DNA of 42,010 nt, taken from positions 1 to 42,010 of IMG/VR virus record IMGVR_UViG_3300037882_003587, one strand, 5' to 3'. The notes under the pieces were generated by a model. It was given only the letters and a program-made list of their open reading frames with translations, was not told the DNA's origin and did no database searches. How positions within the stretch are numbered: position 1 is the stretch's first letter; every line of letters begins with the position of its first letter. This stretch comes from a virus. Made by a program: the position numbers and the translations under genes. Below are positions 6,639 through 41,375 of the stretch, piece after piece.

Positions 6639-8681
6639 CTAAGTGCGCCTTCCTGTAGTTGAAAATAGTCTTAATCGTATTTCGCTCGTTGCCCTTGATC
6701 GCGTGGCTTGCACATTCACTCGGACAATGTAGGTGGCATTGGGCCGACCTTTGTCGATGAATTGCACTACGCGCTTGCCAAAGATTTGTGGTGTCCCTAA
6801 AAGCATTGCCGCGCTGTTTGGATCGTAGGAAACGGGTGACGATTGGCAGGTCACAGACAAGATCGACATGATTGCTTCGTCCTCGGCTAAAATTCCCGCG
6901 AAGTCGAACACGTAAGGAAACATTTCTTCGGTGTATTTGGGGTTTTGATCGTTTTCTGCCGCTTGAATCGCATCAACAGCCCCACCACTCACAACGGGCT
7001 GAATGAAAAAACTAAAAGCGGGTGATGCAATCACACCTGATTGGGCTCTGAAGCTAAAGCTTCCGACCGTAGCGCCGGTAGTCAGTGTTACTTGCCCTTG
7101 CGAATTGGTTACGCCACTAAATGTTCCACCGTTGGCACCGAGCCAGGACAAAGCAGCCGTTTCAACCGGCCTATTGCTTTGATCAACCACGGTATAAACC
7201 GATGACTGATTAGGGTTCAGCGTCGTTGCACCGGATAGCGCGAGTGCCGTAATGATTTTGGCTACTGTGACCACAACAGCAAGTGGCGAACTAACGTTCA
7301 GCTGAGAATCGGTTGCAGTGACCGACACGTTGTACGTGTTACTGCCGCCCACCGAGTAAGAAGCAGGCGCAATGAATGACAATTGTCGCTGCATCGGTTG
7401 GCCAGGTACCGCAGTCAGAGCAAACAAACTTGCATTGACTCCTGAGAGCACAACGCTATGGCCTGATTGCTGATCAACGTCTTGAATCGTGATCACGCCG
7501 CAAGAGGTTTGTCCTTCCAGTGCCACGAATGGCCCACCGCTTAAGGTAGGTGTTGTCGCTGACTCATTGACATCGGTTACCGTTACGACAACAGCAAGCG
7601 GCGCACTCACATTGCCGAGAGAATCCGTCGCTGTGATCGTTATGTTGTAGACATTATTTGCGCCGACATCGAGCGGCATTTCAAAGTTTGGCGCGCTTAA
7701 AAACACTAACTGACGCTGCATTGCCTGCCCAGGCACTGCCACCAAAGCAAATAAAGCCGCATCAAGACCAGCAATGACCGTTGTATGGCCACTGGGTTGA
7801 TCAAAGTCGGTAATCGTTACGATCCCGCAAACCGTCTGGCCCTCGGCAATCGTGAACGGACCACCGGTTAAAAGAACTGCACCACTCGGGCCAGATCCGC
7901 CACCGGTCCAAACGTTGAGCGGAGCAAATTGATACGCAACAGCCGCGCCTGCACCAATAGCATTCGTCCCTCGGGTTTCGCCGTCGTAAATATCTTGGGC
8001 CAAGCCAGTAAATACATAAAATGCAGGGACGTGCGCGGTCCAAGCGGACCAAGTCGATCCGGACGCTAGTTTGAACCGGCTTTCAAAACCTGTTGCGGCC
8101 GTGCCCGTTGCTGGTGGCGTTACATCGACTTCCGCACTCGTGGCGGTCCAATTTGATACGACCGGATCGGTCGGTGCGTTTGGCACTGTGCCTGCATCAA
8201 AGCGGGACCACTCTCCATTTGTGCCAGTGTTGCCGTTGTTGCTAAAAAATCCAGCGAATCGGCCTGACCTCGGGGGCGCGGTCGTGGTGACAAATTCATA
8301 TGTCGTGCCTGCGTTCGTCATGCTTGCAGTTATGTTTCCAAGCCCATCGCTCTCGATTACAAAATCGGTTGGGGTTGCGTTTGCCGGTAAAACCGGAACT
8401 GTTGGCGCCCATGCGCCAGGAACGCCAAGCTGATTGCCGCCATCAGAAAAAGAAATGAGTGAGGATGTGCCCGCGCCTCGGACCACTTGCCAAAAGTAAC
8501 CATCTTGCCCAGCAACACTGCTAAACGGATTGGCTGTATCGCTGCTAGTGTTGAAATACAGAAGTACGGAGCCATTCGTAAGATCGACGCTCTGCACTCG
8601 GAACCTTTGGCGAACAGTTGCCACTTCGCGCCGGTCGTTTGCGGCCAATGTTGCATCAGTAAATTCGACGACGAAAGGCAT
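6639..8681 (-). CDS. Tail fibre/adaptor protein with tandem Ig/cadherin-like repeats
   Basis: 680 residues, no signal peptide. Regions by eye: an N-terminal beta-rich, lectin-like domain (1-160); an FN3-like module (about 166-258); two tandem about 100-residue cadherin-like repeats (270-372 and 379-475) that share 'GGPF..EGQT.CG', 'FAL.AVPGQ.MQRQL' and 'ITATDS/VTATDS'; a bacterial Ig-like domain (about 477-562); and a C-terminal about 95-residue domain resembling phage fibre-tail adaptors. Such Ig-type modules in virions help surface binding. It starts with GAGGTGG 4 nt before the ATG, which overlaps the stop of the giant tailspike (TGATG), so the two are coupled and probably form one receptor-binding apparatus. 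Confidence 0.72.
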   Translation of the reverse strand: MPFVVEFTDATLAANDRREVATVRQRFRVQSVDLTNGSVLLYFNTSSDTANPFSSVAGQDGYFWQVVRGAGTSSLISFSDGGNQLGVPGAWAPTVPVLPANATPTDFVIESDGLGNITASMTNAGTTYEFVTTTAPPRSGRFAGFFSNNGNTGTNGEWSRFDAGTVPNAPTDPVVSNWTATSAEVDVTPPATGTAATGFESRFKLASGSTWSAWTAHVPAFYVFTGLAQDIYDGETRGTNAIGAGAAVAYQFAPLNVWTGGGSGPSGAVLLTGGPFTIAEGQTVCGIVTITDFDQPSGHTTVIAGLDAALFALVAVPGQAMQRQLVFLSAPNFEMPLDVGANNVYNITITATDSLGNVSAPLAVVVTVTDVNESATTPTLSGGPFVALEGQTSCGVITIQDVDQQSGHSVVLSGVNASLFALTAVPGQPMQRQLSFIAPASYSVGGSNTYNVSVTATDSQLNVSSPLAVVVTVAKIITALALSGATTLNPNQSSVYTVVDQSNRPVETAALSWLGANGGTFSGVTNSQGQVTLTTGATVGSFSFRAQSGVIASPAFSFFIQPVVSGGAVDAIQAAENDQNPKYTEEMFPYVFDFAGILAEDEAIMSILSVTCQSSPVSYDPNSAAMLLGTPQIFGKRVVQFIDKGRPNATYIVRVNVQATRSRATSEIRLRLFSTTGRRT

Positions 8682-11600
8682 CAGGCCACCTCATAAACGC
8701 GAACTATTGCATCGCCGAAAGTGCCGTTTAGTTGGTCGGTGCCGCCATACAGCTCATAAAGTCGATTTGGTGTAACACTTGTATCCAAAGCTGTTCCTAC
8801 AACTGTGTATCCAGCGTGTTCAATACCAGCAGGCAGCGCTTGATTGCCTTGTCGCGATTTATCTAGGACAAGATTGTGAGCGGGCATATCAAAAACTGCC
8901 GACGGCACAACATCGGTGGGTGCTTTTGTGTTTGCCAAAACCGCTTGATACTCTGAGTACGGCACAACAATGCAACGACGTTTGTACGGGTATCCACGAG
9001 GCTTGTTGCCCACTACGTTTGCCGGATCATCAACAATAACCGGAGCCGCAGCGGTAGCGCCACCAAGTGACCAGATCATTGCGGGATCGGTGACAGTACC
9101 GTCACCTCGATAGCTGTTGCGGCCTGTTCCTACCATCCCAAAAAACGCAACTACTTGCTTAGACTCAAAAAACACCGGCCCACCGCGAATGTGGGACGTC
9201 CAATCCCAATAGTCGTTTTTACGAGAGTGAATGATGCCGGGGGCTGGCGAGTAGTTGCCGATTGAGTCGTAAACAGAGCCGACCGCCTCGCTTAGTGTTT
9301 TTCTTAAGCTTGGATCAGACGTAAAGTAATAATTCGCAAGCACATTAGTGCTGATCGTAGCTCCGGCAGTCGTAATATCGGCGGGGTTAAAACAATGTAG
9401 ATTCGGTCCTTGTGCGCAAGTATCAGCAACACTCAAACCAGCGGAGCCGCCACTTGCCCACGGACGAACGCCCCACGCCGTCGCTGTTGCTGTTGGTATC
9501 TTTACTAGTGGCCCAGGAGTGCGGCGCGGGTGCTCGGAACCCAATTTAACCGGCCCCAAAGTAGTTCCGGTTTGAGTAAGATTTGCCGAACGAGTGAATA
9601 CAGTTCCAGCATAATCACCGGCAGGTGCTTCGCCGTAGAATGGCGCCATTGAAATAATAAGCTTTTCGCTTGCTTGGTCGTAGCCAATACCTAACATATT
9701 AATGCCGTTACCAGCGTGACCTAGGCCGTTTACACTAAACATTTTGGTAGCCACGTTGCCGTCTAAGGCGTCGGCGGTTGCTTGCAAAGTTGTTGCTGCC
9801 GGTATTGAACTGACTGTTGCTACCGTTGGCGCTGCAAGCGTTGCGGGTGCTTTGATTAAAGCGCACCTTACTATGTAGCCCTCTGTTGATTGAGCGCGAT
9901 TTCCCAGCACGTAAAACTCAGGCTCTGCACCACCAGTCTTGAGCGCTAGGCCCCCGTTTGCATACGTCATATTCACGCCAGAAGCAATAGCAGGTACCTT
10001 AAACCGGCCAACTTCGGTAAAGCTTGATGCATTTAGTGGCGCAGTATCGTTTTGCGTCCAAACTTTTGGATTGCTTGGGCCAGTTGGCTCTAAAGACATA
10101 ATCATTTGGCCTGGGCTCAAGTAGTAAGCACCTTGCGTCTGATTCACGGTCGGATTAGCCGTTGCCAAATCAGTTCTGCCAGTGAGTAAAAAGTGACTTT
10201 GACCTGGCGTATAAACAGCTTCGCAAGCGGTCAATGCTTCTTTGACTAATTGATGTTGGCGACGATACCAAGCTAATCCAGTATCAAATCGAGCTGAAAA
10301 CTCAGGCTCGGCTGCAATAAATGGGAACTCGCGCGCGATGGTTTCCATAACTTGCCACCAAAGATGAACTGTAAACGTCCGACTTGCATTCATTTGAATG
10401 TTGCCGGACGCAGAATCATCGGGCTCACCGCGCTTATTGCGAATCGTGACAAAACTATCGAGCTCAACACCACCCCAAGCAGGAGTGTTATTTGCAGCGG
10501 TCGAGGCCCACGGATTAGCAGAGTTGTTGCTGCTATCCCATGCAGCGCTTGGCAAAGGAATGTTAGTTTCAGAGCCCAAGTACCTCGGCGACATAATAAA
10601 TGGGTGCCGCTGCACTGACTGAGGACAATCCAAAGCACCAAACAAAGCGTAGCGCAGCAATTTGCGCATGAAACGATAGCAAGCAGTAGTTCCTCGACCA
10701 AACTTTTTACGCATTAAGAACAACGGCATTGCATAAGCCGCATCCCAAGCGTGATTTACCCATCCCCAAGCGCGGGTATTTTCCGTTTGCGCAGGGAAAT
10801 TGTTTTGATTAGTGCCTAGTGCCGTTGGTCTTACATCCTCGCTAAAGTTTGTTGTTTGGAGCACTGCCGCTGTAAACGGACGCATACCCAAACGCCAAGC
10901 AGGTCTAATTCGTGGATCTGTTGAGGCTTCTTCGGTTGCAAAATACGCATCAATGTTCGCCCAGCTTGTATCGACAACGGACTGCAACTGACTTTGATCG
11001 ATCCACATTCCATCGGCATAGGCCGGAGCAACGCGAGCAGACTTTTCTAGCTCCATCAAAGGCCGAACGGTCGAGCGATAAAAAGGCTCAAGCCCATTGG
11101 TTAATCCACCGAAGGTAGTCAAGACTAAGTTTTCCCGAAGCATCGGATTAGTCATGAGTTGCGCGGCTACCGGAATAAACTGACTACCAAAAAAGTAACG
11201 AACCGAGCCGGTTAGAGCGTAAGCGCCAGTGCAAGCGGTATAAAGATGCGCTTGATCGATCTGGAAACCGTTGTGCTTTGTGTTGGCATAGTCCAGATCC
11301 ACAACACCAAGAGTCGGAAACGGGCTGATTCCGCCCGTATCGCCGCTATGCAAGTAGTTAAGTGCACCAAAGCCGCTTGAGCGAGCCAAATAAATGCGGC
11401 GCTGATCTGTCGGGTACCGCGAAGTGTCCAAAGGGCCACCAAAAGGGTGAGTTTTGAATACTGCTGGCACGCCATTGACCGCACAATCAGCCACGTCGCG
11501 CATGATCTGACCGTAAGTCTCTGCGCCTTGCGACGTGAAGCGACGAACCGCGTTAGGGCCACGATCCAAAACCATTTGTTCGGCATGGTGCCAAGGTTCA

Positions 11601-13084
11601 CGATCTTGAGATTGCCCGCCCGCGCTAGTTGTTTTGGTTAAAGCACCGGCATCACCTGGACCCATATAGCCAAAGTGATCCCCGCTAAACAGCCCGTTGA
11701 CTGGAAACCGAGGTGATAAATAGATGTTTCCACCGCCGTTAGGGTTTTGATAGCTGCCCAATGCATCCATTGTCGGCGTGATGCGATGCGCGTAAAGCAC
11801 ATTCGGGTTGTTTTCAACACCTGTAATCGCAGCTTCTTTATTCCACCACCAAGCATAAGCGCCCGCACTCAATCGAACGCGAGTCTCGTTGCTACCGGTT
11901 GTTGTACCTCGCAAACGCCCTGCTTTTTCGCCCGACGCCGTGTAAACCGCGTCGTTGCCATCAAGGTAATCAATCTCAACGAAGTCAAGCGAGCGAGCGT
12001 TTGGATCAGTTGTTAAAGCATCCGATCCGGTCCGCAAGGGCCACTTGCCAGTAGCGCTAGGCCAGGTATCGGCCGCAATCTCGACACAACCGTTACTCGG
12101 CGTGTACCACTTTTGAAAATGCACGTTGAAACCGTTTTTGGCGACCGGAGCCGTGACAGCAATCGATCCAGTTGCGCAGTATTGATAGCCTACGCCAGCG
12201 ATTGCACTCGGCAAAGGTCCGCGCTTGAGTCGATTGAGTGGATCTGATGGGCAGTCATGTAAGTTCGCCAAGCCTTCGAATTCTTGCGTGCCAGCGGTCG
12301 CAGCGCTGAAAATGCGCAATCGGGCTTTTGTCGGGCCAAACATCGTTGACCAAACGACTTTATTGATCGAGCAGCGCTTGACCACCGCGTTGACTGTGTA
12401 CTCAACACCACCGGCTTGGCCTGCAGAAGCCCCGTTTTCCGGTCGATAAAACAAAGTCTTGAATTGCGCTGGTGTAAGCGTTGCGCCAACTGTAAGTAGC
12501 GTTTCGATCGTGTTATTGAGCCAAAAGACTTGGCCGGATGTTGGAACGACTTGAAACGTCGCATTGGCAGTAATAACCGGCTGTCTTAGCTCGTAATCGC
12601 CGACTGTTGGCACCAGTAAAGCAGTAAAGTCGCTCGACTGGCCTTGCGGGAATGATCCGCCGCCACCACCGCTGCCATCAAAAGGCAAAGCGCTCGGCGC
12701 TGTAAACAAAGCCCCCGAGAACCCTTCGCCGTCAATTGTTTCAATCAATCCGCGCGCGAAAACACCGGCAAACACGATCAAATCATTGTTTTGCGAGTCG
12801 CGTAAAGTCAGTGTTGTGGCTGAAGCAGGCAAGTTGGCTTGCGTAACCGTGACTGCTAAATAACTATCAGCGAATGCAAGCCGACGCGGATTGTCATTGC
12901 TAACCGTCGGCGGCGCAATGGTCCACACTTTGAGTTGCGCGCCAGAACTCGCTTTAGCAACAAAAGTAGGAGCCGAACCGCACGCTGCAACAACGATCTG
13001 CAAGTAAGCGAGTTGAGTCGCTCCATTTGCGGCCGAAGCAAGCAATGCATCTCTAAGCGTTGTATTGACGACTGTTGCTGACAT
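8681..13084 (-). CDS. Giant tailspike / receptor-binding protein, probable glycan-active
   Basis: 1467 residues, first gene of the late operon. N-terminal beta-rich region (1-135) followed by a Gly-rich linker (about 137-142). The middle (about 480-960) is helix-rich with many Trp, His and Asp: 'EPWHHAEQMVLD', 'DQAHLYTACTGAYALTG', 'WGWVNHAWDAAY', 'HLWWQVMETIAREFPF'. That pattern resembles alpha/alpha-toroid glycan-active folds such as polysaccharide lyases, but I cannot assign a family. The C-terminal part (about 1000-1467) is beta-rich, propeller-like. I infer a capsule or exopolysaccharide depolymerase spike. No strong Shine-Dalgarno precedes the ATG, and the upstream gap holds the presumed late promoter. 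Confidence 0.65.
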   Translation of the reverse strand: MSATVVNTTLRDALLASAANGATQLAYLQIVVAACGSAPTFVAKASSGAQLKVWTIAPPTVSNDNPRRLAFADSYLAVTVTQANLPASATTLTLRDSQNNDLIVFAGVFARGLIETIDGEGFSGALFTAPSALPFDGSGGGGGSFPQGQSSDFTALLVPTVGDYELRQPVITANATFQVVPTSGQVFWLNNTIETLLTVGATLTPAQFKTLFYRPENGASAGQAGGVEYTVNAVVKRCSINKVVWSTMFGPTKARLRIFSAATAGTQEFEGLANLHDCPSDPLNRLKRGPLPSAIAGVGYQYCATGSIAVTAPVAKNGFNVHFQKWYTPSNGCVEIAADTWPSATGKWPLRTGSDALTTDPNARSLDFVEIDYLDGNDAVYTASGEKAGRLRGTTTGSNETRVRLSAGAYAWWWNKEAAITGVENNPNVLYAHRITPTMDALGSYQNPNGGGNIYLSPRFPVNGLFSGDHFGYMGPGDAGALTKTTSAGGQSQDREPWHHAEQMVLDRGPNAVRRFTSQGAETYGQIMRDVADCAVNGVPAVFKTHPFGGPLDTSRYPTDQRRIYLARSSGFGALNYLHSGDTGGISPFPTLGVVDLDYANTKHNGFQIDQAHLYTACTGAYALTGSVRYFFGSQFIPVAAQLMTNPMLRENLVLTTFGGLTNGLEPFYRSTVRPLMELEKSARVAPAYADGMWIDQSQLQSVVDTSWANIDAYFATEEASTDPRIRPAWRLGMRPFTAAVLQTTNFSEDVRPTALGTNQNNFPAQTENTRAWGWVNHAWDAAYAMPLFLMRKKFGRGTTACYRFMRKLLRYALFGALDCPQSVQRHPFIMSPRYLGSETNIPLPSAAWDSSNNSANPWASTAANNTPAWGGVELDSFVTIRNKRGEPDDSASGNIQMNASRTFTVHLWWQVMETIAREFPFIAAEPEFSARFDTGLAWYRRQHQLVKEALTACEAVYTPGQSHFLLTGRTDLATANPTVNQTQGAYYLSPGQMIMSLEPTGPSNPKVWTQNDTAPLNASSFTEVGRFKVPAIASGVNMTYANGGLALKTGGAEPEFYVLGNRAQSTEGYIVRCALIKAPATLAAPTVATVSSIPAATTLQATADALDGNVATKMFSVNGLGHAGNGINMLGIGYDQASEKLIISMAPFYGEAPAGDYAGTVFTRSANLTQTGTTLGPVKLGSEHPRRTPGPLVKIPTATATAWGVRPWASGGSAGLSVADTCAQGPNLHCFNPADITTAGATISTNVLANYYFTSDPSLRKTLSEAVGSVYDSIGNYSPAPGIIHSRKNDYWDWTSHIRGGPVFFESKQVVAFFGMVGTGRNSYRGDGTVTDPAMIWSLGGATAAAPVIVDDPANVVGNKPRGYPYKRRCIVVPYSEYQAVLANTKAPTDVVPSAVFDMPAHNLVLDKSRQGNQALPAGIEHAGYTVVGTALDTSVTPNRLYELYGGTDQLNGTFGDAIVRVYEVA

Positions 13085-13227: not shown

Positions 13228-13256
13228 TTGACACTTGATTGTTACGACCGTATAAT
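13228..13256 (+). promoter_or_regulatory. Perfect consensus sigma70 promoter
   Basis: TTGACA (13228-13233), a 17-bp spacer, and TATAAT (13251-13256): an exact match to the housekeeping consensus at optimal spacing. It drives the three small plus-strand genes 13301-13965. Expected start of transcription is about 13263. Confidence 0.9.
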
Positions 13257-13266
13257 TCTAATCATC

Positions 13267-13282
13267 GAATCAATCCTGATTC
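13267..13282. promoter_or_regulatory. Operator-like palindrome just downstream of the promoter
   Basis: GAATCA-ATCC-TGATTC is a perfect 6-bp inverted repeat lying from about +4 to +20 of the expected transcript. A repressor bound here would block a promoter that otherwise should be very strong. The small ribbon-helix-helix-like protein at the end of the cassette is an obvious candidate ligand (inference). Confidence 0.6.
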
Positions 13283-13300
13283 AACAGCCGGAGATCCAAA

Positions 13301-13549
13301 ATGCAAACACTAAATTCAGAAACCGCAAAATTTCTAACGCGCGGCTACGCTTTAAAATTGATTAAGCAAGGCAAAGCAGAGTGCGTAAGCACAGCCGCAG
13401 TGCCGACAGGAGCAACGACTCAAATGTATTGGGTTGTTAATCGGTTTGACACACAAACAACGGTACACGTAAAAGTAAACGTGATGGGTAAGTTACACCT
13501 GCCCCTGCTCGGCAAAAACGGCTACACAGGCAAAGATGTAGCGCTGTAG
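13301..13549 (+). CDS. Small protein, first gene of the strong-promoter cassette
   Basis: 82 residues, basic (many Lys), no recognised family. The C-terminal half looks beta-rich ('MYWVVNRFDTQTTVHVKVNVMGKLHL'). Shine-Dalgarno GGAG is 7 nt before the ATG. It lies on the plus strand between two minus-strand operons, under its own promoter, so it may be expressed in the lysogen or very early after infection. Function unknown; candidates are a host-takeover, counter-defence or lysogenic conversion protein, on context alone. Confidence 0.75.
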   Translation: MQTLNSETAKFLTRGYALKLIKQGKAECVSTAAVPTGATTQMYWVVNRFDTQTTVHVKVNVMGKLHLPLLGKNGYTGKDVAL

Positions 13550-13600
13550 CCACGTTAAGTTAGTTCGACAAACACACCCACAGTTAAAAAGGAAATAAAA

Positions 13601-13780
13601 ATGAGCGAACAATTAACAGCATGGGTTGTAAGTGCAAACGGCCATGAATTTGGCATCTATCACGCTGATACTGCGCAGCAGGCACGCGATTTGTGCGCAC
13701 AAGACGCTGGCTATAAAAGCGAGTCAGAAATGGTTGAAGGATTAGAGCAACCAAGTGAGTTGGAAGCTAGGCCAGCATGA
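13601..13780 (+). CDS. 59-residue protein, second gene of the cassette
   Basis: Very short gene with a good AAAGGA Shine-Dalgarno before the ATG at 13601. The product is acidic: 'LTAWVVSANGHEFGIYHADTAQQARDLCAQDAGY'. A short beta strand followed by 'TAQQARDLCA' looks like a compact alpha/beta fold of small phage proteins. Its TGA overlaps the ATG of the next gene (ATGA). Function unknown. Confidence 0.7.
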   Translation: MSEQLTAWVVSANGHEFGIYHADTAQQARDLCAQDAGYKSESEMVEGLEQPSELEARPA

Positions 13781-13965
13781 CTCCACCGAAACCAATGGGG
13801 GGTGCTCGAAAGGGCGCTGGCCGACCAATCGAACCAAACCCTGTGGTTGAAATGAAGCTTACATTCAAGCCCGAAATCAAAGCCAAGTTGCAAAAACTGG
13901 CGTCTGACTCATCAATGAGCGCGAGCGAATGGGTTGCCCAACGAGTCGAACGGGCTAGGAATTAA
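13777..13965 (+). CDS. Small DNA-binding protein, AT-hook-like N-terminus and RHH-like C-terminus
   Basis: 62 residues. The N-terminal 'GGARKGAGRP' is a basic Gly/Arg/Pro motif common at the start of small phage DNA-binding proteins. The rest ('VEMKLTFKPEIKAKLQKLASDSSMSASEWVAQRVERA') has the strand-helix-helix pattern of ribbon-helix-helix (CopG/Arc-like) regulators. Translationally coupled to the previous gene through ATGA. Likely autorepressor of this cassette, by position. Its last 11 bp overlap the convergent gene on the other strand. Confidence 0.72.
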   Translation: MTPPKPMGGARKGAGRPIEPNPVVEMKLTFKPEIKAKLQKLASDSSMSASEWVAQRVERARN

Positions 13966-14245
13966 CGAGCTTTGGTACCGATTTTGGGTCCAAAAAGTAC
14001 ACTGTAGTATTCTTAGGGCCGAGCCTGCGAGGGTTCGGCACTTGTTTGACTGTAATGCGTCCTCGGCTCACTAGATGACCGCAGGCTGTCCGAATCGTGT
14101 CGTAGCTCAGACTTACGCACTGATCTGCAATATCAGCCTTTGATGCGCCCTTAAACTCGCCGGTTGCGGCTTGCTTTTGCAGATTGTAGATCACGAACTC
14201 AACAACGTCCGTCGCTGGATGTTCTTCTTCGAGTATCCAATTCAT
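13955..14245 (-). CDS. Winged-helix protein, last gene of the early-left operon
   Basis: 96 residues. 'VVEFVIYNLQKQAATGEFKGASKADIADQCVSLSYDTIRTACGHLVSRGRITVKQV' has the helix-turn-helix plus wing pattern of replication or regulatory wHTH domains. ATG at 14245 overlaps the upstream stop (ATGA) and follows a GGGA Shine-Dalgarno; a GTG 15 bp earlier is less likely. End of the operon next to late-gene control: a late regulator is possible but unproven. Confidence 0.68.
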   Translation of the reverse strand: MNWILEEEHPATDVVEFVIYNLQKQAATGEFKGASKADIADQCVSLSYDTIRTACGHLVSRGRITVKQVPNPRRLGPKNTTVYFLDPKSVPKLVNS

Positions 14246-14748
14246 TTGATTAGTTCCCACTCATATCGCGTGTCGCGCTTAACAAGCCGCACATAAGCAG
14301 GTCTAAAGTTTGTTGCTTGAGCTAAGACTTGCAAGCGTTTGGTTACGATGTGTCCAGGCACGCCGAGTTTGTCGGCTATTTCTCGCATTTCCGCCGGACC
14401 GTCTTGCAAGATCTGCAACACAACGACTTGCTTTGCGTTCAGTTGCTTGATCGAATGATTGTTTGTTGGCTTCAAAACCTGTTGAATTAAGTCTGTTTGG
14501 CCAGGCAAGCAATAAAGGTAAAGACGCCGTTGTTCTGTGTGCGCCGTGTACTCGATCAGCTTTTTGGCTTCGATAAGCGCAGGAATACGCGACCGGACAA
14601 CGTCGGTCAACACGCCTAGGTGCTGCACAATCTGTTGCTCAGTTTTGGGGTGACAGTTGATGAAAGCAAAAATATCATCGTCGTAATTTTTTGGCTTTGT
14701 CGTGACTGCTTTGACGATTGCAGCGAAAACTTGCTTACTAGCGCGCAT
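14242..14748 (-). CDS. Protein with two winged-helix-like domains
   Basis: 168 residues from the ATG at 14748, which has an ideal GGAGGT Shine-Dalgarno 6 nt upstream; the longer frame to 14820 overlaps the nuclease gene and is not needed. Two HTH-like halves: residues 17-65 ('DDDIFAFINCHPKTEQQIVQHLGV') and about 100-150 ('LNAKQVVVLQILQDGPAEMREIADKLGVPGHIVTKRLQVL'). Probably binds DNA; role unknown. It could regulate late genes or assist replication. Confidence 0.7.
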   Translation of the reverse strand: MRASKQVFAAIVKAVTTKPKNYDDDIFAFINCHPKTEQQIVQHLGVLTDVVRSRIPALIEAKKLIEYTAHTEQRRLYLYCLPGQTDLIQQVLKPTNNHSIKQLNAKQVVVLQILQDGPAEMREIADKLGVPGHIVTKRLQVLAQATNFRPAYVRLVKRDTRYEWELIK

Positions 14749-14752
14749 GTTT

Positions 14753-15205
14753 TTACCTCCCGAGCGGATCTTGAATTTGCAAGTAGTCACAGATTGCGCG
14801 CCATGCTTCTTTGTACCCATGGCAAACGACAGCTACAAAGCCTTGCGACTCGGCGTGCTCAAGGTATAGCGCTTGCTCGCGCGTTGGCTTTGCGCCGCGC
14901 CAACAAGCCTTTAGCTCGACTCGCAAGCCTGATTTGTCGCCCATGCGCCAATCGAGCATAAGGTCTGACACGCCGCGTAGGACTCCTTCGGCTTTGAGCT
15001 TGGCTGCGACTAAGACATGGCGTTGCCCGCCATTCGGGACCGAGTGCAACCACTTCAAAGCTTCATGGCCAGGTAGTTTGTGGGCAACAACGAAGTCTCG
15101 ATACCTGATCACTTGCACCTGATGTTGGTGCTCTGACCAAGATTCTGTTGGGTCAATTGGCTTTTCGAGCCCATTCTTTGGGCAACCTTTGGGCAGACCG
15201 GTCAT
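14753..15205 (-). CDS. VRR-NUC family nuclease
   Basis: 150 residues. The VRR-NUC core is clear: 'EALKWLHSVPNGGQR' then 'GVLRGVSDLMLDWR' (the Asp of the PD-(D/E)XK fold), 'GLRVELKACWRGAKPTREQALYL' (Glu-x-Lys), and the C-terminal 'GFVAVVCHGYKEAWRAICDYL'. Phage members are structure-specific DNA nucleases, suited to resolving replication or recombination junctions before packaging. The start overlaps the upstream stop as ATGA. Confidence 0.88.
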   Translation of the reverse strand: MTGLPKGCPKNGLEKPIDPTESWSEHQHQVQVIRYRDFVVAHKLPGHEALKWLHSVPNGGQRHVLVAAKLKAEGVLRGVSDLMLDWRMGDKSGLRVELKACWRGAKPTREQALYLEHAESQGFVAVVCHGYKEAWRAICDYLQIQDPLGR

Positions 15206-16305: not shown

Positions 16306-17277
16306 TCATGCTGGAACGCCCGCGTGGTCGTTGACTCGTCGTTGCCAGTCCGGCCAGTTTTCCCCGATTTTTACAACCAGTTCGGGTGCTCGCTTCTCGC
16401 CAGTTCGGAAAACGCGAGCCTTGAACGCTGGAAAAGTTTCGGCGTCACCTTGCTTGATCCCAAGCTTTGCCCCTGCTCGCTCAATTCCGGATGACGTCAT
16501 GTACCAAGGCACGGTTTCTTTGGGCGCATCCTCGGGAGGCATCCCGTCGTCGTATCGGCCGTTTAGCCATGTTTGCGGCAACGGTTGAAAGTCGCCTAAC
16601 CAACTTTCTGTTTTGGACCAAGCGAGCACCAACGTGCACATTTCCTCGGCCCTAGATTCGAGTCCTTTGGTTTTCCAAATCCCGAAGCATTTGAACTTTC
16701 CGACTTTGCGTTTGTTGGTTGGCCAACAATCCCAAAACTTTTCAAACCCGACAGAATATTGAATAGTGCGTTTCGCAGAACGCACAATATTATTGGTCTG
16801 TTCATTGTCTGTTAATGTGGTCTGTTCTTTGCGTGTCGTGTAATCCGCTACGTCGCGTATAGCGGAATCCGCTACGGTTAGAATAGTGGAATCCGCTACG
16901 GTAGTTGATTCCACTACGGTAGTTATTTCCGCTACGGTTGTGGATAGTTTTTCAGTAGTGGAATCCGCTACGGTAGTTGTCGAAAAACTGGGTACCAAAA
17001 TCTTGTAACGACTGGATTTTGAAAACCCACCTTCACCAATTTTTTCAAGCCACCCGAGCTCTACTAATTCGCTTGTTGTTTTTGAAATATTCGACGGATG
17101 TATCCCAATTCGCTCCGACAAAGCTTCTCGGCTTGGGAATATCATGTCGGTGTTTTTGTTGCGAAAAGACAGAAGGCCAATCAGAACTTTGATGTGCCAT
17201 AAACCTAGTCGCCGGTCGGCCAAAATCTCAATCGGAACTATTGCAAATGGGTTGACCGCGAGCTGATCTTTTTTCAC
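16306..17277 (-). CDS. O-like replication initiator with internal iterons
   Basis: 323 residues. N-terminal winged helix (about 15-90: 'FAIVPIEILADRRLGLWHIKVLIGL', 'FPSREALSERIGIHPSNISKTTSELVELGWL'), then a Thr/Val/Ala/Asp/Ser-rich linker (about 100-150) with repeated 'TVADST', and a C-terminal domain ('FEKFWDCWP', 'WKTKGLESRAEEM', 'FQPLPQTWLNGRYDD') of the kind found in phage O-like initiators that recruit a host helicase or loader. As in lambda O, the linker-coding DNA carries the iterons. I chose GTG at 17277: it overlaps the methyltransferase stop (GTGA) and has GGAG 8 nt upstream. No phage helicase or P-like loader is visible downstream, so host DnaB may be used by a different route. Confidence 0.8.
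   Translation of the reverse strand: MKKDQLAVNPFAIVPIEILADRRLGLWHIKVLIGLLSFRNKNTDMIFPSREALSERIGIHPSNISKTTSELVELGWLEKIGEGGFSKSSRYKILVPSFSTTTVADSTTEKLSTTVAEITTVVESTTVADSTILTVADSAIRDVADYTTRKEQTTLTDNEQTNNIVRSAKRTIQYSVGFEKFWDCWPTNKRKVGKFKCFGIWKTKGLESRAEEMCTLVLAWSKTESWLGDFQPLPQTWLNGRYDDGMPPEDAPKETVPWYMTSSGIERAGAKLGIKQGDAETFPAFKARVFRTGEKRAPELVVKIGENWPDWQRRVNDHAGVPA
16845..16974. repeat. Iteron array, probable replication origin
   Basis: Six copies of CC(G/A)CTACG(GT), at 16845, 16869, 16893, 16911, 16929 and 16965. Spacings are 24, 24, 18, 18 and 36 bp, about two or more helical turns. Several copies sit in wider units such as AGTGGAATCCGCTACGGTAG, and AGCGGAATCCGCT is itself a palindrome. They lie inside the O-like gene, encoding its low-complexity linker, exactly as in the lambda origin. 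Confidence 0.75.
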
Positions 17278-18758
17278 GCAATGCACTCCACGGCTTGAGC
17301 AATCCGCTCACCGATCCACCGAACAACCGGCACGGCCCATGAATTCCCAAGCGCTTTGTACCGGCTTGTATCGCTTGATGTTTTCGTTACGGTGTATTCG
17401 TCGGGGAAACCTTGTAGCCGCTCAAACTCAATCGGCAGTAGTCGGCGAACGTGCATCTCTAACTTTGCGCTTTTCCCTAAAGCAAAAAGCGTTGCCCCTG
17501 AATTGATATGCTGATTCTCCAACCCCAATTTTGTCGCATACGCGGTATCAAGGGTTCCGGCAATTTCGGCAGGCCATTGCCTATTGGCTTTGGGTTCCAG
17601 CACAGCCTGATAGCCCTGCCCTGCTTTGCCACCGCCCAAACCCAATGCTGGTGACGTTTTCGAAGTTCTGACCTCACCCCGTTGATTTTCCGAAATAAAA
17701 ACAATATTTTCTTGGCCTCTGTTCGTGCCGCAACAATGCGCCAATTCGGTCGATACATTGGGGTCTTGGGCGCCTTGAACAGAAACGACGGCATGCTTAT
17801 CATCCGAAGTTAAGCACGGTGATTTGTTTTCCCAAAACAACTTCGAATTGCCGCCATGTTCCGGCGAACACCCAATATGAGTCGCAGGAATGCAATAAAC
17901 CATAGGCACCAGAACAGCACCGTCACCGTCACCGTCACCGTCACCGTCACTACTCGGGCCCTTATGATCACGCGCTTTAAGCGTTGAACATGTTTCGGTG
18001 TGCAAATAGGGCTGTAGACCACCGCTTAACGCAAAATCTAATCTTGCTCTGCCACTTCCGTCAGTGCGCGTTGTAACCGTTCCGATAACGTCTTTCCGCG
18101 TTTTGCTGCGCGGTTCAATATTCCCTGAGCCATTCGCTTGCTCAAAAAGTATTTTTGCGGGATCGAGCCCGTCCATAGCACTTGCGATAACGTAGACTCG
18201 ACGACGTCGTTGGGGCACTCCGAAAAATTCAGCATTGAGCGTGCGCCAGGCGATAGCGCGTTTGGGTCCAAACACACAACCAGCGTTTTTCCACTTGCCC
18301 CTTGGTGCTTCCAATGCGCGGTCTTCACCGGCAAGCTTGCCCAAAAAGCAACCGAACGCGTTTCCTTTTGCGCTAAAAACTCCGTGCACGTTTTCCCAAA
18401 AAACGATTGTTGGCTTTCGGCCGGCGTTGATTCGAACATCGTCAATTGCATCAGCAATCTCGCAAAAAGTTAGTGTTAAATTCCCTCGCTCGTCGTCAAG
18501 CGAATCGCGTTTACCGGCCACGCTGAACGACTGACAGGGCGTACCACCGCAAAAGAGCTCAGGTGCTTCAATGGCTTCAGTTCGAATTAGGTCTTCCAGC
18601 AGCCGCATGTCGCCATGGTTTTTAACTGTGGGATATTTCTCGGCAAGCAGTGCGCTTGGGAATTTTTCAATCTCTGAAAGCCATGCCGGCTCCCAACCAA
18701 GCGGGGCCCAAGCCACTGTAGCCGCCTCAATGCCCGAGCAAACAGAACCAAAGCGCAT
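17274..18758 (-). CDS. DNA (cytosine-5)-methyltransferase
   Basis: 494 residues. C5-methyltransferase motifs in order: I 'FGSVCSGIEAATVAW' (3-17), IV 'GGTPCQSFSVAGKR' with catalytic Cys75, VI 'FWENVHGV' (ENV, 122-124), VIII 'GVPQRRRRVYVI' (180-191), IX 'RRLLPIEFERLQGFPDEYT' (about 434) and X 'RYKALGNSWAVPVV' (about 467). A long region (about 195-430) between VIII and IX holds the target-recognition domain and contains five Asp-Gly repeats. No cognate restriction enzyme is nearby, so it is an orphan, probably protecting the phage DNA or changing host expression. Between DUF4406 and the replication initiator in the early-left operon. Confidence 0.95.
   Translation of the reverse strand: MRFGSVCSGIEAATVAWAPLGWEPAWLSEIEKFPSALLAEKYPTVKNHGDMRLLEDLIRTEAIEAPELFCGGTPCQSFSVAGKRDSLDDERGNLTLTFCEIADAIDDVRINAGRKPTIVFWENVHGVFSAKGNAFGCFLGKLAGEDRALEAPRGKWKNAGCVFGPKRAIAWRTLNAEFFGVPQRRRRVYVIASAMDGLDPAKILFEQANGSGNIEPRSKTRKDVIGTVTTRTDGSGRARLDFALSGGLQPYLHTETCSTLKARDHKGPSSDGDGDGDGDGAVLVPMVYCIPATHIGCSPEHGGNSKLFWENKSPCLTSDDKHAVVSVQGAQDPNVSTELAHCCGTNRGQENIVFISENQRGEVRTSKTSPALGLGGGKAGQGYQAVLEPKANRQWPAEIAGTLDTAYATKLGLENQHINSGATLFALGKSAKLEMHVRRLLPIEFERLQGFPDEYTVTKTSSDTSRYKALGNSWAVPVVRWIGERIAQAVECIA
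17918..17950 (-). repeat. Hexanucleotide tandem repeat in the methyltransferase gene
   Basis: Five and a half copies of CACCGT (plus strand), encoding Asp-Gly x5 in the recognition region of the methyltransferase. Because the unit is 6 bp, slippage keeps the frame and would only change linker length, not switch the gene off. Confidence 0.9.
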
Positions 18759-31888: not shown

Positions 31889-32434
31889 ATGAAAAAGCTT
31901 TTAATCGCATCAATCGCAGCAATGGTTTCAATGGGGGCAAGCGCCGGAACCGTAACTTGGACATGGGACATCGCCATTCCATCAACAAACTTAGGAAGCG
32001 CAGCAAGCCCACTGCCGGCAGCGTACCCTTGCGCTCAAGTCACAGGGTTTGCGCAGTACATCGAAGGTAGGACTCCGTTTTCAATAGGGACATTGCTCGA
32101 TGCAGAGCTCAACGTGTGCGGGCAAGTATTCACCGAAGCCAATCTATTCACGCAGAACAATGACTATTTCATGAGCACACGTAACCCACCAAGGTTATTT
32201 GATTCCCAAAACTTCACGGCCGCAATACAGTTCTTCGAAAACAACCCAGCAGTTGAATTTTGGGGCACCATAGATGGTGGTGCAAACTTGTGGCAGCAAT
32301 ACGATACATCTGCAGTTTTCACGCGCGTTGGGCCGATTCCGCTTGGCACTCAAGTACCAGTACCAGCAAGCGCAACACTCTTAGGGCTTGGCTTATTAGG
32401 ACTGAGTGCGTTTCGGCGTAACAAAAACTCTTGA
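31889..32434 (+). CDS. Secreted protein with PEP-CTERM-like sorting tail
   Basis: 181 residues. Sec signal peptide 'KKLLIASIAAMVSMGASAG' (cleavage after Ala-Ser-Ala, about 19), a Trp/Asn/Pro-rich mature part, and a C-terminal sorting tail 'VPVPASATLLGLGLLGLSAFRRNK' split as motif 'VPVPA', hydrophobic helix, and Arg/Lys end. This is the VPxPA variant of PEP-CTERM, recognised by exosortase in Gram-negative hosts. Good GGAG Shine-Dalgarno. It ends with a strong terminator and has a palindrome upstream, so it behaves as a self-contained unit next to the integrase: a candidate lysogenic conversion gene that changes the host surface. Confidence 0.82.
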   Translation: MKKLLIASIAAMVSMGASAGTVTWTWDIAIPSTNLGSAASPLPAAYPCAQVTGFAQYIEGRTPFSIGTLLDAELNVCGQVFTEANLFTQNNDYFMSTRNPPRLFDSQNFTAAIQFFENNPAVEFWGTIDGGANLWQQYDTSAVFTRVGPIPLGTQVPVPASATLLGLGLLGLSAFRRNKNS

Positions 32435-33989: not shown

Positions 33990-34178
33990 TTACACCTTTT
34001 CGCACCTTTCAGCCTCTTGGGGCTCGCGCTTTTTCTTGGGTGCTCGCTGTTCGCGCAAGTAACGCTGCAGCCTAGCTACGACTTTCTGCACTACAAACGC
34101 ATCCCTAGTCGCACCTTTCCCTTTCAGGTCTTGATAATACTTTTTTGCTTCATTAATAAGGGCGTCTTCGATCATCAT
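33990..34178 (-). CDS. Small last gene of the late operon
   Basis: 62 residues, basic and helical ('INEAKKYYQDLKGKG', 'VVARLQRYLREQRAPKKKREPQ'). Start ATG overlaps the stop of the polyvalent protein gene (ATG-ATG repeated, first used here). Unknown function; a DNA- or protein-binding partner of the giant virion protein is possible by position. Confidence 0.65.
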   Translation of the reverse strand: MMIEDALINEAKKYYQDLKGKGATRDAFVVQKVVARLQRYLREQRAPKKKREPQEAERCEKV

Positions 34179-37100
34179 TGCAGTACAGCCTCGCGCGTCT
34201 GGTTGCGCAATTCCTTTGGCGCTGCCTTAATAATGCGCTCAGCCCGACCGAGCTTTATTTCTTTGATGCGTCGCGCAATTTGCTCCGGCGTAATCCGTAT
34301 CTTGGACTCTGGATTGTTGCTGTTCCAGTCTTGCAATTTCTTACGAGCCCTATTGAACTTATCGTCACTACCTTCAATGCGCGCTTGAGCCATATCGTCA
34401 GCAATGTCAGCCTCAACATTCTTGACCAAAGCGATGTTTTGTTGGGCGGTCGACACAGACCGACTTTCACGCGCTACAGCAGCCGGCTGAAAGCCGATTC
34501 CCTTGGCGATTGACTCAAGCCCCGTCACTGGCAATACGTTGCGGCCTTTTCCGTCTTTGTAGTAGCCCGTGAAAGCCATTTCCACGCCTTTTGCGGCGTT
34601 TCGAAAGGCAATCGGCAAAAACTCTCCCTTGATTGCATCGCGAACGACGCCACCGGCGGGACCAAGCACATCCAGCAAGTCGCCGGTCTTGTCGGTTTTG
34701 CTCTTTAGCAAAATGCCTGTGCCTGGCAATAGGTTGGACATTCCCATACGGCCAGCAACGTCAATCGGGAATCCTGGCATAGCAGATCCACCGCGCAAGA
34801 CGAATTCAGCAGCGTCGCGCCCGACAATCTGACTAACAAACTTGGTTTTCTGCTCTTTACTGTTCCACGCATAACCCATGGCTTGCGCGATCGTATCGAT
34901 CAAATCGTCAAGATCGTCGGCAAATGGCAAGCCTTGCACACCTGATGCAACAACTAAAATTGCCAATGCCAGTGCGCGTTCCTTGGGCGGCAAGCGCTTT
35001 AAGAATTCCAAATAGCTGATGCTGAACTGCTTAAACGTGAACAGCGTCGAACCGAGTGCGCCCCGAGCCCAATTGGGTTTATTCGCTTTTGTGTACACGC
35101 CTTGCGTTTCGGCAATGGCATTGACCGCAAATTGATATGGGTCGGCCTGCTTTGTCTCAACAGCCGCACGGTAGGCCGCGATGAAGGTTACGCGCCGGTT
35201 AAATTGCTCAGCCAGCCCAAATAGCGAACCCCATATGAACAACCCACGCCTAACCCACATTTTGTTACCAAACTGCCGTGATGCTTCACCCTGCAACTGG
35301 TGAATCTCTTGCGGGCTAACAATACCGTCCTTCTCAGCACGCTCAACCGCGTTTTGTAAAGTTTTGTCATTCAAGTTCTTTGAAAGCGCGTCTTTCATGG
35401 CTGAAGCCAACTGGCTACCCGCCGAGCGAGTGCCTATGAATTGAGCTAGGTAAGGCACAGTCATCGTCAAAGGTTGAGTAAGGTTGACCATGGCCGACGC
35501 GATAGAGCCACCGATGTACTGAAAGAACAGCAAGCCACGTATCTTTGCGGCTTCTTCAATCGGGTTTTGAACGTAGTCCATCAACTTAATGGCCTCGTCT
35601 TTGACGTCACCCAACTGTTTGTCAATGTTGGATGCGGCCTCACGCATCAAGTTCATGTGCAAGTTACCCGAGGCACCGCGAGCGTTTGACGTGATAAATG
35701 AAGCCAATACGCGAGTCGCATCAGTGCTAAAACCGGCCACGCCCTTACGCTCAAGCAAGCGTTTCATGGCCGACCGATTGTTTTTCGACAACTTGATAAA
35801 GTCAGCAAAAGCTTCGGTTCGATCCGCGCCAGTTAGCTCGGCAAAAAGCTCAAGAGTATCGGGTGTCATGCCGTTCATGATCTTAAAGCTTTGCTCCGAC
35901 AATATGCCTTGCTGGACCGTGGCCCCTTCTTCTTGTTGTTTGAGCTCGCGCGCCATTTTGTTGGCGTCGGCCTCAGACTCAAACAGACCAAAGTAAACTT
36001 GCTCCTCGCCCCGAGTCGCATAAACCGAATACTTACCAAAACGCATCAAAGGTGCATAACCCCGATCAATCAGGCTTTGTGCCTTTTCACCAAGCGTCAT
36101 CATTTGATTGCCAAGATCGTTCCAGCGGTCCGCGTTTTCAGGATCGCGGTTTGCTCGGTCAAAGTAATAATCACGTAACTCAAGTGCTGCGCTGTCAGCA
36201 TTGCGACTACTCAAAGCGCTAGACTTTTCGGAATTGGGCAAATCATCAGCCCTATTAAGCATTTCCGTGATAGCCAAGTCGTTGATGCTTTTATCGGTAG
36301 CTGCGCGAAATTCCTTATATAAAGCAATTTGACCGTCTGTCATGCCGAAAATAGAGCGCAATTCTTTAGGCGTGAAAACAATGCCAGGCTTGGGTAAGAT
36401 GTGCTTTTCAAACGATCCATTGATCAGCTTTTCAAACTCATCAATTTGCTTGCCCTGCCACATCTTCATAATGCCGTGATCAACATGCCGACCGCGAATC
36501 AATTCCCGCGCCTTCTGGTCCACGGTCATGCCGTCATACCGTTTTTTCAGATCTGACGCTAAAACGGGTTGGCCAGATGCATCGCGCGTCCAAAGCAACG
36601 TGCCATCGAACACCGATTTTTGAAGCTTTTCATTGTCCTCTTTACTGATTGGCTTACGCTTGAGATCACTAAACTTGTCAAAGCGTGGCAAAACCGTTGG
36701 CGCCAGATCTGCAGCATCATTGGCGAATCGGCTAACACCAGCAATAAAGCCTTGAGCCAAGTCATAAACCTTTTTGAATTCAGGTGACCTTTGGGCTTTG
36801 TGATATTGAGTTCCAACTGTTTTATGCCACCACGAGTTAAAGGTTTGGCGCGTCTTGAAAAAATCGTTCAACCGTTCTTTGACCGCCGTTTCGTTGGGCA
36901 TGTACTCCATGACGCGGCTATGCAAAATGTCCGCATCGCCAGATTCAGATAGAGAAAACGCCGGAGCACCCTCATTTTTCTTAACCTTCCCGCCCCCCTC
37001 AACAAACCGACGAGCAGGCAAAATAAATTGATTAATTAAATCTTGGTCGTTGAACTCAAGTTCGAATCCAAGGTCACGCAATAATTGGCGAATCGAACCA

Positions 37101-40100
37101 ATCAAACGCTTTACAAATGAATTATTAGGTTCTGTTTCTGCAAGTTCGGCTAACACCTCTTCTGCCGCTATCAGGACGTCACCATCACTTTTTGGATTGA
37201 GTCGATATTTTTGTAGTTTTTCCCGAACTTGAACTGGCTTTTGTCGCGCGACCGATTTGAGTATTGTGTTGACATCACTTCCAAATGCGCCGCGCAAGCC
37301 ATAATGCCCAACAACTTCATGCAGCAAAACCCTAACAACATCGCTTGGAGTCTTGAGTTTATTGGCGACCAAGTACACTTGCCCGTCAAAGAAAAACCCC
37401 TCAACGGCCGACCCAAGTGAATCGGCCTGATCTTTGACCGACTGAGGCGCTTCTTCAAACGATGGCAATACGACAACATTTGGAGCGCTTGGTAGTTTTT
37501 TGAGCGCCTGCGCAACTGACTCTTCGATTGAAGCTACGGTTTTTTCCGAAGCTTTATCATCTGTGTTTCTAAGTAGGCTATAGAACAATCCGGCAGTGGA
37601 CTCGTTACGTTGGGGCACCCCCATGAATATTCCAGCCAAAACTCCGGATTCCGCAAAGCTTTCTGTGCGTAAAAGGGTATCGATGACAACTGCTCTTTTA
37701 AGAGTCGAGACGCCAAGAGAATTTTGACGACCAGCAGCAGACTCACTCCAGCGCTTAAACTCGTCATTAGAGACGGCGTTTTCTGTATCTCGATTGACAA
37801 AGCTTCCAGATCCAAAGTCGTACCGTATTTGGCTGATTTCGGGGATAGCTGATATTGAATTATCACGAGCGGTTTTTAGTAAAGATTCAAGGTTAAATGC
37901 ATCGTCGCCATCCCTCCATTTTAACCCAACCACCCCTATTTTGTCATCACCTTTCTTTTGCATTTTACCTGGCGCAAGATGCTTTGTTGAACCCATTTTT
38001 AAGGCGCTGGACAGCATCATTTCCGTACGACGACGCATTGCAAAAGGGGATAGCCCTGCGGGATCTTCAACAAACACTAAATTGTCGTTGAACGCCCAAT
38101 TAGCGATGCCAGCGTAAATTGCGCTACCTTGCGAACCAAGGTCTAATCGGCTTAGGTCAACCCAAACCTCTGATCCGTTTCGATAAACATAAAAATTTTT
38201 GCCGTTGCCATCTTTGTATAACAACTTTGATTCAGCACCAGACTCGCTTTCCTCATCCGGAGCGGTTACGTCACCAACAAATTCAATACGTGGATCAATA
38301 TCTTCAAACACACGATTCAGGTTTTTTGATTTTGATTTTGGATACCGAAAAACTTCTGGATCAGACACAAATTCAATTAAAGAATCGCGAGCAAATTCAG
38401 TGTTGGTCACTGAAAAAAGAGCGACTTTATCGCCCTCTTCTTTACTTTGAATGGTCGCAAAAAAGGTATCAAACGATTCCTTTATTGCTGGAATTTCCTC
38501 GGGCAAAGCATAAGGGTAGGGCTTGACCGATTTACCAGTAAAAGACGCCTGCATTTGCTGCTCGGCGTCCCACATTTCTGCAGTAACAATGTTTGCTAAG
38601 TAATCATTGGTATTGTCGACTGATCGGGCGGCTTCGATAACATATTGCTCAAACGCACGCGCCGTCTTTTCAGGAACCAACGAAAAATAGTCTTTGCTTC
38701 TAAAGGAATCCAATTCTTTCGAACGGACCTCGAAGTTGTTATTGGAAACAACATCAATCACTTTTTGATATGCCAGTTGCATTTCCGCGCGAATGGTACT
38801 CGGCCAGCGTCCACGTTGCGTTTCTGTGGCCATGCCGCTCGGTTTACCGCCTATGCGCGCAAAATAGTTATCAAGGCCATGCCACCACTCGTGCGCTAAA
38901 CTGCCTGCGCCCCGTGATTTGGTAAGATTAATAACAATTTTATCGGGCTCATAATGTGCTGACGGAGCATTTTTACCGCCGCCACCCCGAGCCCCAAACG
39001 CTAAAGCAAGTTCACCGTTCAATGACAAAGCTTTCGCCGGAATTCCGAGTACCAACGCCAAGTCTTGCAGAGCGTCAAACGCTTGATTCAAGTCTTCTTG
39101 TCGGCGCTTCTGTTCAACGTATTCGCCAAACTGCACACCTCGAAAACCAAATGCGGACTGAAATTGCTCCGGCGTTACGTTTTTCCCTTTGCGATGATCA
39201 GAACCTATACGATCTTGATTGCTTTCGCGGCGTTCGCTTGGTATAAATTTCGCCTGATCAAGCAATCGATCGAGCTCGTCAATGTTTTCATCGGTTTTAA
39301 GATAGTCACGCGCGTCCTGGGTTGCACTAAATTCCTTTAAATCAACAAATCGCTTACCGACCTTTTTGCCAATAAAGTACACATTTCGCCGACTTTTGTA
39401 GCTATATATTTCGTAGGCGTGTTCCTTGCGAGGCGATTGATCAACGCTATTGATAGTCTGCTTCCCAGCCACAAATGCGATAGCTGCAGCAATCGCTTCG
39501 GCTCGATTCTCTCCGCGCCCGATCACTCGTGGCATTTGATTTGACGTAGTCCCCAATGACTTATAGATTGTGTAGGGCGCATTTGGGTCACCGCGGGTTT
39601 TGTACAGTTCGGCCGGCGAACTAGGCTCAACCCGAAGTCGTCTTTGTGCAACCGCTTTGTAACCTTCAAGGCTAATCGCTTGCCCAGCTTTTGCATAAAG
39701 TTCCGCGCGCACCAAAATGCTGTCTGACCCAAGTTCCGTTTGGGAAAGGACGTCAATTAATGCTGTAACGGTATTGGAGTTATTTAGAGCGGTGGACGTG
39801 ATCCTGTAAAGACTTTCCGCTGTAGCTGCCCATTGCGCTACGCGATACGGTTGTCGTGGCTTCGTGGGAATTTCCTCGCGAATCGCGCGCATAAGCCCAA
39901 CCGCCATTGGATCTAAACCTTCTTGCAGCAATTTGGCGTAATCAGGAAGCGGCCAAAGCTTGGCAAACGGCTCTGAAACAAATTGCCCAACGGATACATT
40001 CTTTGCGAACGCATCTTTGAATCGACCAATTGCATCCTTTTTAGCACCTTCAATTTTCTCGCCAAAGTCTTCAATTTTGGTCGCTGGCGATGCTTGCTCA

Positions 40101-40540: not shown

Positions 40541-41375
40541 TGGTAAACTCTCTTGTCGCAAACTCTTTGGCAAACGCCAGCAAAACCGCATTGTTCTGAT
40601 TAATCAGACCTTGTTCTTGCCGCTTTTTAATGTTGATCTGATTTAACCTTTCGGCGTTTGCACCGCCGCCGTAATAGGTCGATCCGGTACCCGTCCCTGC
40701 TGCTTCCAATTGAGCTTGCAATATGACGATTTGCGCCTGAAGTGCCGCGATTTCGGATGCATAGTCAAATACTTCATACGTTGCGCTACCGCTTAAACCG
40801 ACTACCGAATTCACGCCATAGGCGCTTGCTTGTTCATTGCCAACAGACGAAAAAATAGCGTACTGCGTTGCGCCATCCGAACTTACGTTACTCAATATTT
40901 TGTAGCCCGCCGACAAATCAACGCCGACCGTGGACGGAATTAAATAGCTTGCCCCCAGCGAAGTGCCTACAGAACTGGCTATTGAATACGATCCAGAGCT
41001 GTTTGAAACCACAACTTCAAAAATCAAGTAGCCTGCCGTGACACCTGAACCAACCGGTTGACCAACTACATACGATGTAGGGCCATTGGCTCCAACAGCT
41101 TGATGAACAACGTAACTTCCAGTTGCGGCGTTGCCGATGGCGCTCGATATAGCATAAGCGCCCGTTTGAGTAACTCCACTCGCTTGCCGAATGTTAAAAC
41201 TACCCGAACCATTGGCTCCAACAGTTTGGCCGATTATGTAACTAGCGCTCGAGCTAGATCCAACTTGGCTAAGCCCGCTGCTAAGTAGGTCATTGTCGAA
41301 CCAGCCTTCGGGTTTGGCCGTTTCATCGAACCAACCTTCTGGAACAGCATCCGAACTGAAAAACCCTTTGGCCAT
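40530..41375 (-). CDS. Structural protein with eleven 14-residue repeats
   Basis: 281 residues. N-terminus has a double 'PEGWFD' (12-17 and 22-27). Residues 45-198 are eleven 14-residue repeats of the form 'xYxIxxxVGxxxxx' (for example 'SYIIGQTVGANGSG', 'SYVVHQAVGANGPT', 'SYSIASSVGTSLGA'), a pattern expected for a stacked beta structure. A coiled coil (about 208-230, 'EIAALQAQIVILQAQLEA') and a Gln/Asn/Lys-rich C-terminus follow. Probably a fibre-like or decoration protein of the virion. It starts 3 bp after the upstream stop, in the late operon. Confidence 0.72.
   Translation of the reverse strand: MAKGFFSSDAVPEGWFDETAKPEGWFDNDLLSSGLSQVGSSSSASYIIGQTVGANGSGSFNIRQASGVTQTGAYAISSAIGNAATGSYVVHQAVGANGPTSYVVGQPVGSGVTAGYLIFEVVVSNSSGSYSIASSVGTSLGASYLIPSTVGVDLSAGYKILSNVSSDGATQYAIFSSVGNEQASAYGVNSVVGLSGSATYEVFDYASEIAALQAQIVILQAQLEAAGTGTGSTYYGGGANAERLNQINIKKRQEQGLINQNNAVLLAFAKEFATREFTNEH
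40782..41243 (-). repeat. 42-bp-period coding repeat (11 units)
   Basis: 462 bp encoding the eleven 14-residue units of the structural protein. The units are diverged at DNA level, so the repeat is old and held by selection on the protein rather than recent slippage. Confidence 0.85.

Follow-up and report, generated by a model that had tools for sequence, protein, structure and literature searches.

Organization of the cassette and its promoter

The window, a whole IMG/VR virus record of 42,010 bases, encodes an integrase and a CI-like S24 repressor and thus probably represents a temperate phage, whose terminase is nearest, among annotated phages, to those of Pseudomonas phage Itty13 and Burkholderia phages DC1 and BcepIL02 (38–40% identity). 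The cassette under study lies on the plus strand, flanked on one side by a minus-strand gene encoding 1467 amino acids (8681–13084) and on the other by a minus-strand operon starting with HTH-like genes, which agrees with the placement between two oppositely oriented neighbours described in an earlier note on this DNA. The following elements were located.

13228 to 13256, plus strand: promoter, TTGACA-17-TATAAT, matching the consensus at 12 of 12 positions
13236 to 13282, plus strand: putative operator, four TGATT/AATCA half-sites at 13236, 13260, 13268 and 13277
13301 to 13549, plus strand: gene 1, 82 amino acids, basic (pI 9.8), an orphan
13601 to 13780, plus strand: gene 2, 59 amino acids, acidic (pI 4.3), candidate inhibitor
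13777 to 13965, plus strand: gene 3, 62 amino acids, GGARKGAGRP N-terminus and RHH-like pattern, putative autorepressor
14018 to 14039, plus strand: possible terminator, 9-pair hairpin with a T-rich tail, inside a convergent gene

All three tiny genes proposed earlier were recovered as open reading frames, and the codon use of each is coding-like and in line with that of the phage (z of 3.1, 3.8 and 3.3 for genes 1, 2 and 3, respectively). Shine-Dalgarno-like sequences precede genes 1 and 2, while an ATGA stop/start overlap joins genes 2 and 3, a tight coupling that argues for an operon of the acr-aca type. Terminator-like hairpins occur at near chance number in the region around the candidate site. 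Gene 1 displays no homologue in the curated libraries, in PADLOC or in single-sequence searches of IMG/VR and the phage collection, and PADLOC gave no match anywhere in the cassette.

The promoter is, as the earlier note had it, a perfect consensus, and it is the sole 12/12 site within the 42 kb window, where a first-order Markov simulation expects 0.017. Together with an inverted repeat located within the core promoter or next to it, this site reproduces the control region of acr-aca operons, the palindrome alone being within chance. This palindrome, GAATCA (13267–13272)-ATCC-TGATTC (13277–13282), is present at about +5 to +20 as had been claimed, but a 6+6 inverted repeat equally good arises in ~26% of shuffled promoter cores; alone it is therefore not evidence, and as stand-alone support it was dropped. 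Four copies of some 5-mer are similarly ordinary when taken alone (394 of 3000 shuffles). The TGATT/AATCA half-site also brackets the −10 element of the cassette of a relative, L008, as TGATTG-N10-CAATCA, where N10 is GTATACTATT, and its joint recurrence in both promoters was reproduced by 38 of 3000 shuffled pairs. This recurrence, a post hoc comparison, lends moderate support to the putative operator.

Several other genes of the window were noted. The minus-strand gene at 14242–14820 encodes a protein with MarR-like matches in two places and a weak Ren-like exclusion match (E = 0.0026). A C5-cytosine DNA methylase (PF00145, E = 2.5e-38) with a GD-rich insert (SDGDGDGDGDGA) is encoded at 17274–18758 on the minus strand and could provide a second, anti-restriction function of the phage. 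Adjoining the integrase, the plus-strand gene at 31889–32434 encodes a protein that looks secreted and carries a PEP-CTERM sorting motif at its C terminus (PF07589, E = 4e-4, a value at the cut-off); it may be either phage cargo or host flank. A polyvalent protein of 2138 amino acids with domains LPD37, LPD5 and LPD1 is encoded on the minus strand at 34175–40591.

The gene 2 family and its links to AcrIC5 and Aca10

Gene 2 is absent from the curated libraries searched, Pfam, NCBIfam and PHROGs among these, and a single-sequence search of the phage collection gave one weak match. The search for relatives in IMG/VR and in plasmid and phage collections places it in an unnamed family carried by about a dozen phage and plasmid lineages, mostly metagenomic contigs: L002, L003, L004, L008 with the near-identical L009 and L010 (one lineage), L011, the close pair L012/L013, L014/L015, L024, L028, the Hydrogenophaga plasmid L017 and Myoviridae sp. 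ctsHD2 (L018). The family is rare in bacteria, being found in 1 of 398 genomes of the phylum, the same one accounting for 1 of 399 of its order. The sole match in genome contigs (L016) falls within a large unrelated protein and was discounted as fortuitous. The predicted fold of gene 2 is beta-beta-alpha-alpha-beta (mean pLDDT 87); structure comparison of the model with the PDB gave no match, and the matches in BFVD are mostly uncharacterised phage proteins. Acidity is common to the family, with a pI of 4.3 in the window and of 4.05–4.29 in the four relatives for which it was calculated; acidity is also frequent in type I-C Acrs, which favours an acr-aca reading.

In two lineages (L008–L010 and L011) the gene 2 domain constitutes the N-terminal and AcrIC5 the C-terminal part of one protein. 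The AcrIC5 part of the fusions matches PDB 7yhr with E = 8e-11 and 2e-9, and Pfam PF22147 is found in two fusion members (best E = 4.6e-17). AcrIC5 blocked CRISPR interference in plaque assays, at the DNA-binding step (PMC7913775). The PF22147 domain is absent by Pfam search from gene 2 of the window, a point against the acr-aca reading, and the identification of gene 2 with AcrIC5 itself was accordingly rejected. In addition, an Aca10-family HTH gene directly follows the gene 2 homologue in L003, L012 and L013, the L003 regulator matching PDB 7xi5, a structure from the Aca10 paper (PMC9410881), with E = 1.5e-22 and 67% identity. Aca10-like proteins occur in 3 of 398 genomes and PF22147 in 0 of 398, a zero that serves only as a rough base rate since the control genomes also gave none. 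Chance would not be expected to place two rare anti-CRISPR markers next to a single rare family. The link to a known Acr and a known Aca thus runs through the relatives of gene 2, outside the window itself.

Other members of the family occupy different surroundings. The homologues in L014, L015 and L028 belong to ordinary small-gene early operons lacking an adjacent regulator of the cassette kind, which counts against the acr-aca reading. In L024 (167–1305) another kind of N-terminal domain precedes the gene 2 domain in one fused protein, which is followed by an unknown protein of 97 amino acids and then by a protein of 127 amino acids with an RHH-like end. The Hydrogenophaga homologue (L017, 3992–4192) resides on a conjugative plasmid and immediately follows a RES/Xre toxin-antitoxin pair.

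Gene 3 and the exchange of regulators

The profile matches of gene 3 are weak, comprising the phrog_876 repressor (E = 0.02), the Arc-like phrog_228 (E = 0.12) and a NikA-like profile (E = 0.12); Pfam yielded no significant RHH match, and Pfam, NCBIfam and PHROGs yielded no HTH match. The low-confidence model contains two C-terminal helices and gave no structural match. From its sequence pattern, the weak profiles and this model, gene 3 looks RHH-like; the weakness of these matches is a point against the acr-aca reading. The earlier description of a final small DNA-binding protein thus stands as a prediction, from the repressor-like and Arc-like matches, with a class that looks RHH-like, not the HTH of published Aca families 1–12. 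The arrangement is that of small cargo on a mobile element followed, in the same operon, by a small protein predicted to bind DNA.

A search for relatives through the regulator, also suggested earlier, retrieved little: the single-sequence search of IMG/VR and the phage collection with gene 3 gave no match, while the GGARPGAGRK protein encoded after the fusion in L008–L010 displays a weak similarity to it (phmmer, 14.5 bits), probably derived in part from the shared N-terminal motif. The presence of a GGARxGAGR regulator beside this fusion, like gene 3 in the window, favours the acr-aca reading. Regulator and operator type change together among the relatives. Thus, the window and L008 combine a GGARxGAGR-type regulator with the TGATT half-site, and L002, L003, L012 and L013 combine an HTH regulator with a promoter-region palindrome of 1-bp centre, of the same type as the published Aca10 operator, AATACGCTCA-T-TGAGCGTATT (PMC9410881). 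The run of small genes in L011 and L024 closes with one for an RHH-like protein. These pairings indicate that regulator and operator switch together while the cargo remains constant.

Nineteen acrIC5-like loci from IMG/VR, four of them the already known fusions, served as control. The stand-alone acrIC5 homologues display the promoter-cargo-regulator layout of the cassette. Three of these loci (L034, L038 and L044) carry, after or near the acrIC5 homologue, an HTH regulator that we take from its sequence to be Aca1-type, the backing here being their joint assignment to phrog_3865, and three others (L040, L041 and L051) carry a different HTH protein. RHH-like regulators occupy this place in L036, L039 and L042. 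The L042 regulator is an unambiguous RHH protein (RHH_5, E = 2.9e-10), and its promoter contains an 11-bp tandem repeat, GCGTACAATAG. RHH proteins, most clearly that of L042, therefore occupy the Aca position at acrIC5 loci. The accepted Aca families are HTH proteins, and the openly available journal literature searched contains no report of RHH-type Aca proteins. Aca-like proteins have also been found without known acr genes, which counts against the acr-aca reading.

Proposed function and comparison with known systems

The cassette is probably an acr-aca-type operon by which the phage counters host defence, held in check by its own RHH-like repressor, with gene 2 as a member of a new candidate inhibitor family. 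The resemblance to anti-CRISPR operons had been proposed from layout, and it gains support from the fusion of the gene 2 family to AcrIC5, its position before Aca10-family regulators at three loci and the similar layout of acrIC5 loci. Parts of the original argument were not supported or needed correction: the palindrome alone is within chance, the regulator looks RHH-like whereas accepted Aca families are HTH, and the evidence concerns gene 2, not gene 1.

It is rather unlikely, although the strongest of the alternatives, that gene 2 blocks a restriction-modification or other non-CRISPR system from within an equally autoregulated anti-defence cassette, the Aca-like regulators being shared early switches. 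A domain fused to AcrIC5 could have a different target, and an archaeal virus study suggests that other anti-defence genes, too, may be under Aca control (PMC11065993), but AcrIC5 and Aca10, two independent markers beside the gene 2 family, both stem from CRISPR inhibition. The same two markers, as AcrIC5 fusions and repeated Aca10 neighbours, would be left unexplained by an ordinary accessory (moron) or host-takeover operon with its own repressor, in which gene 2 would be a general partner domain without a role in defence. This explanation appears improbable, even though three members of the family match Icd-like host division inhibitors weakly (best E = 0.022), some give weak profile matches to YciI-like proteins, and some homologues reside in early operons beside a cro-like gene or amid many small genes. 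Finally, a type II toxin-antitoxin operon with gene 1 or 2 as toxin and gene 3 as RHH antitoxin is very unlikely: small overlapping genes with an RHH-like autoregulator and the plasmid copy behind a RES/Xre pair recall such systems, but neither gene 1 nor gene 2 matches a toxin family in the libraries searched or PADLOC, so gene 3 has no recognisable toxin partner there, and gene 2 has no constant partner and is accompanied by regulators of unrelated folds, a variety at odds with an antitoxin dedicated to one toxin.

As an autorepressed anti-defence operon, the cassette would act at phage entry, when the unrepressed near-perfect promoter would drive a burst of genes 1, 2 and 3. The target of the small acidic gene 2 protein would be a host defence complex that it binds and blocks, in the likeliest case the effector of a type I CRISPR-Cas system; a further inhibitor, specific to this lineage, may be encoded by gene 1. 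With its translation coupled to that of gene 2, the gene 3 protein would build up, bind the TGATT/AATCA half-sites that lie around the −10 element and below it, and thereby switch the operon off. More tentatively, one may propose both that gene 2 represents a new anti-CRISPR family, acting alone or, when fused to AcrIC5, as part of a two-target inhibitor, and that RHH proteins are an Aca-like repressor class overlooked because Aca searches look for helix-turn-helix domains. If true, a candidate anti-CRISPR family would be added with independent support from a natural AcrIC5 fusion, and RHH repressors would be able to run acr operons. As the AcaFinder search rests on HTH models, an RHH bait would then open anti-defence genes beyond the reach of such guilt-by-association searches.

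The repeated half-sites and the position of the putative autoregulator recall Arc/CopG RHH repressors. Gene 3 displays the pattern VEMKLTF-KPEIKAKLQKLAS-SASEWVAQRV, expected to form a short strand-like segment and two helices, and differs from these repressors in its extra GGARKGAGRP N-terminus and in having no significant Pfam match. The acrIC7-acrIC6-aca10 operon of Pseudomonas citronellolis (PMC9410881) shares with the cassette a strong promoter, a core-promoter palindrome, small cargo genes and a last gene for a small DNA-binding protein, predicted as such in the window. In contrast to that operon, the window has an RHH-like regulator in place of Aca10, half-sites mostly below the −10 element and cargo that is not AcrIC6 or AcrIC7 by the tests applied. 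The AcrIC5 systems (PF22147, PDB 7yhr) are related through the gene 2 family, which forms the N-terminal half of the fusions in L008–L010 and L011, and through the acrIC5 homologues of L036, L039 and L042 followed by RHH-like regulators, whereas the window protein lacks the AcrIC5 domain. The natural fusion AcrIE4-F7 (PMC8887544) likewise combines two inhibitor domains within one protein and provides a precedent for the gene 2-AcrIC5 fusion as a dual inhibitor, although its domains are others and the gene 2 domain is a candidate inhibitor. Lastly, one acr pairs with different aca genes in acr-aca operons (PMC9410906, PMC9765179), and the relatives of gene 2 display a similar swap of switches.
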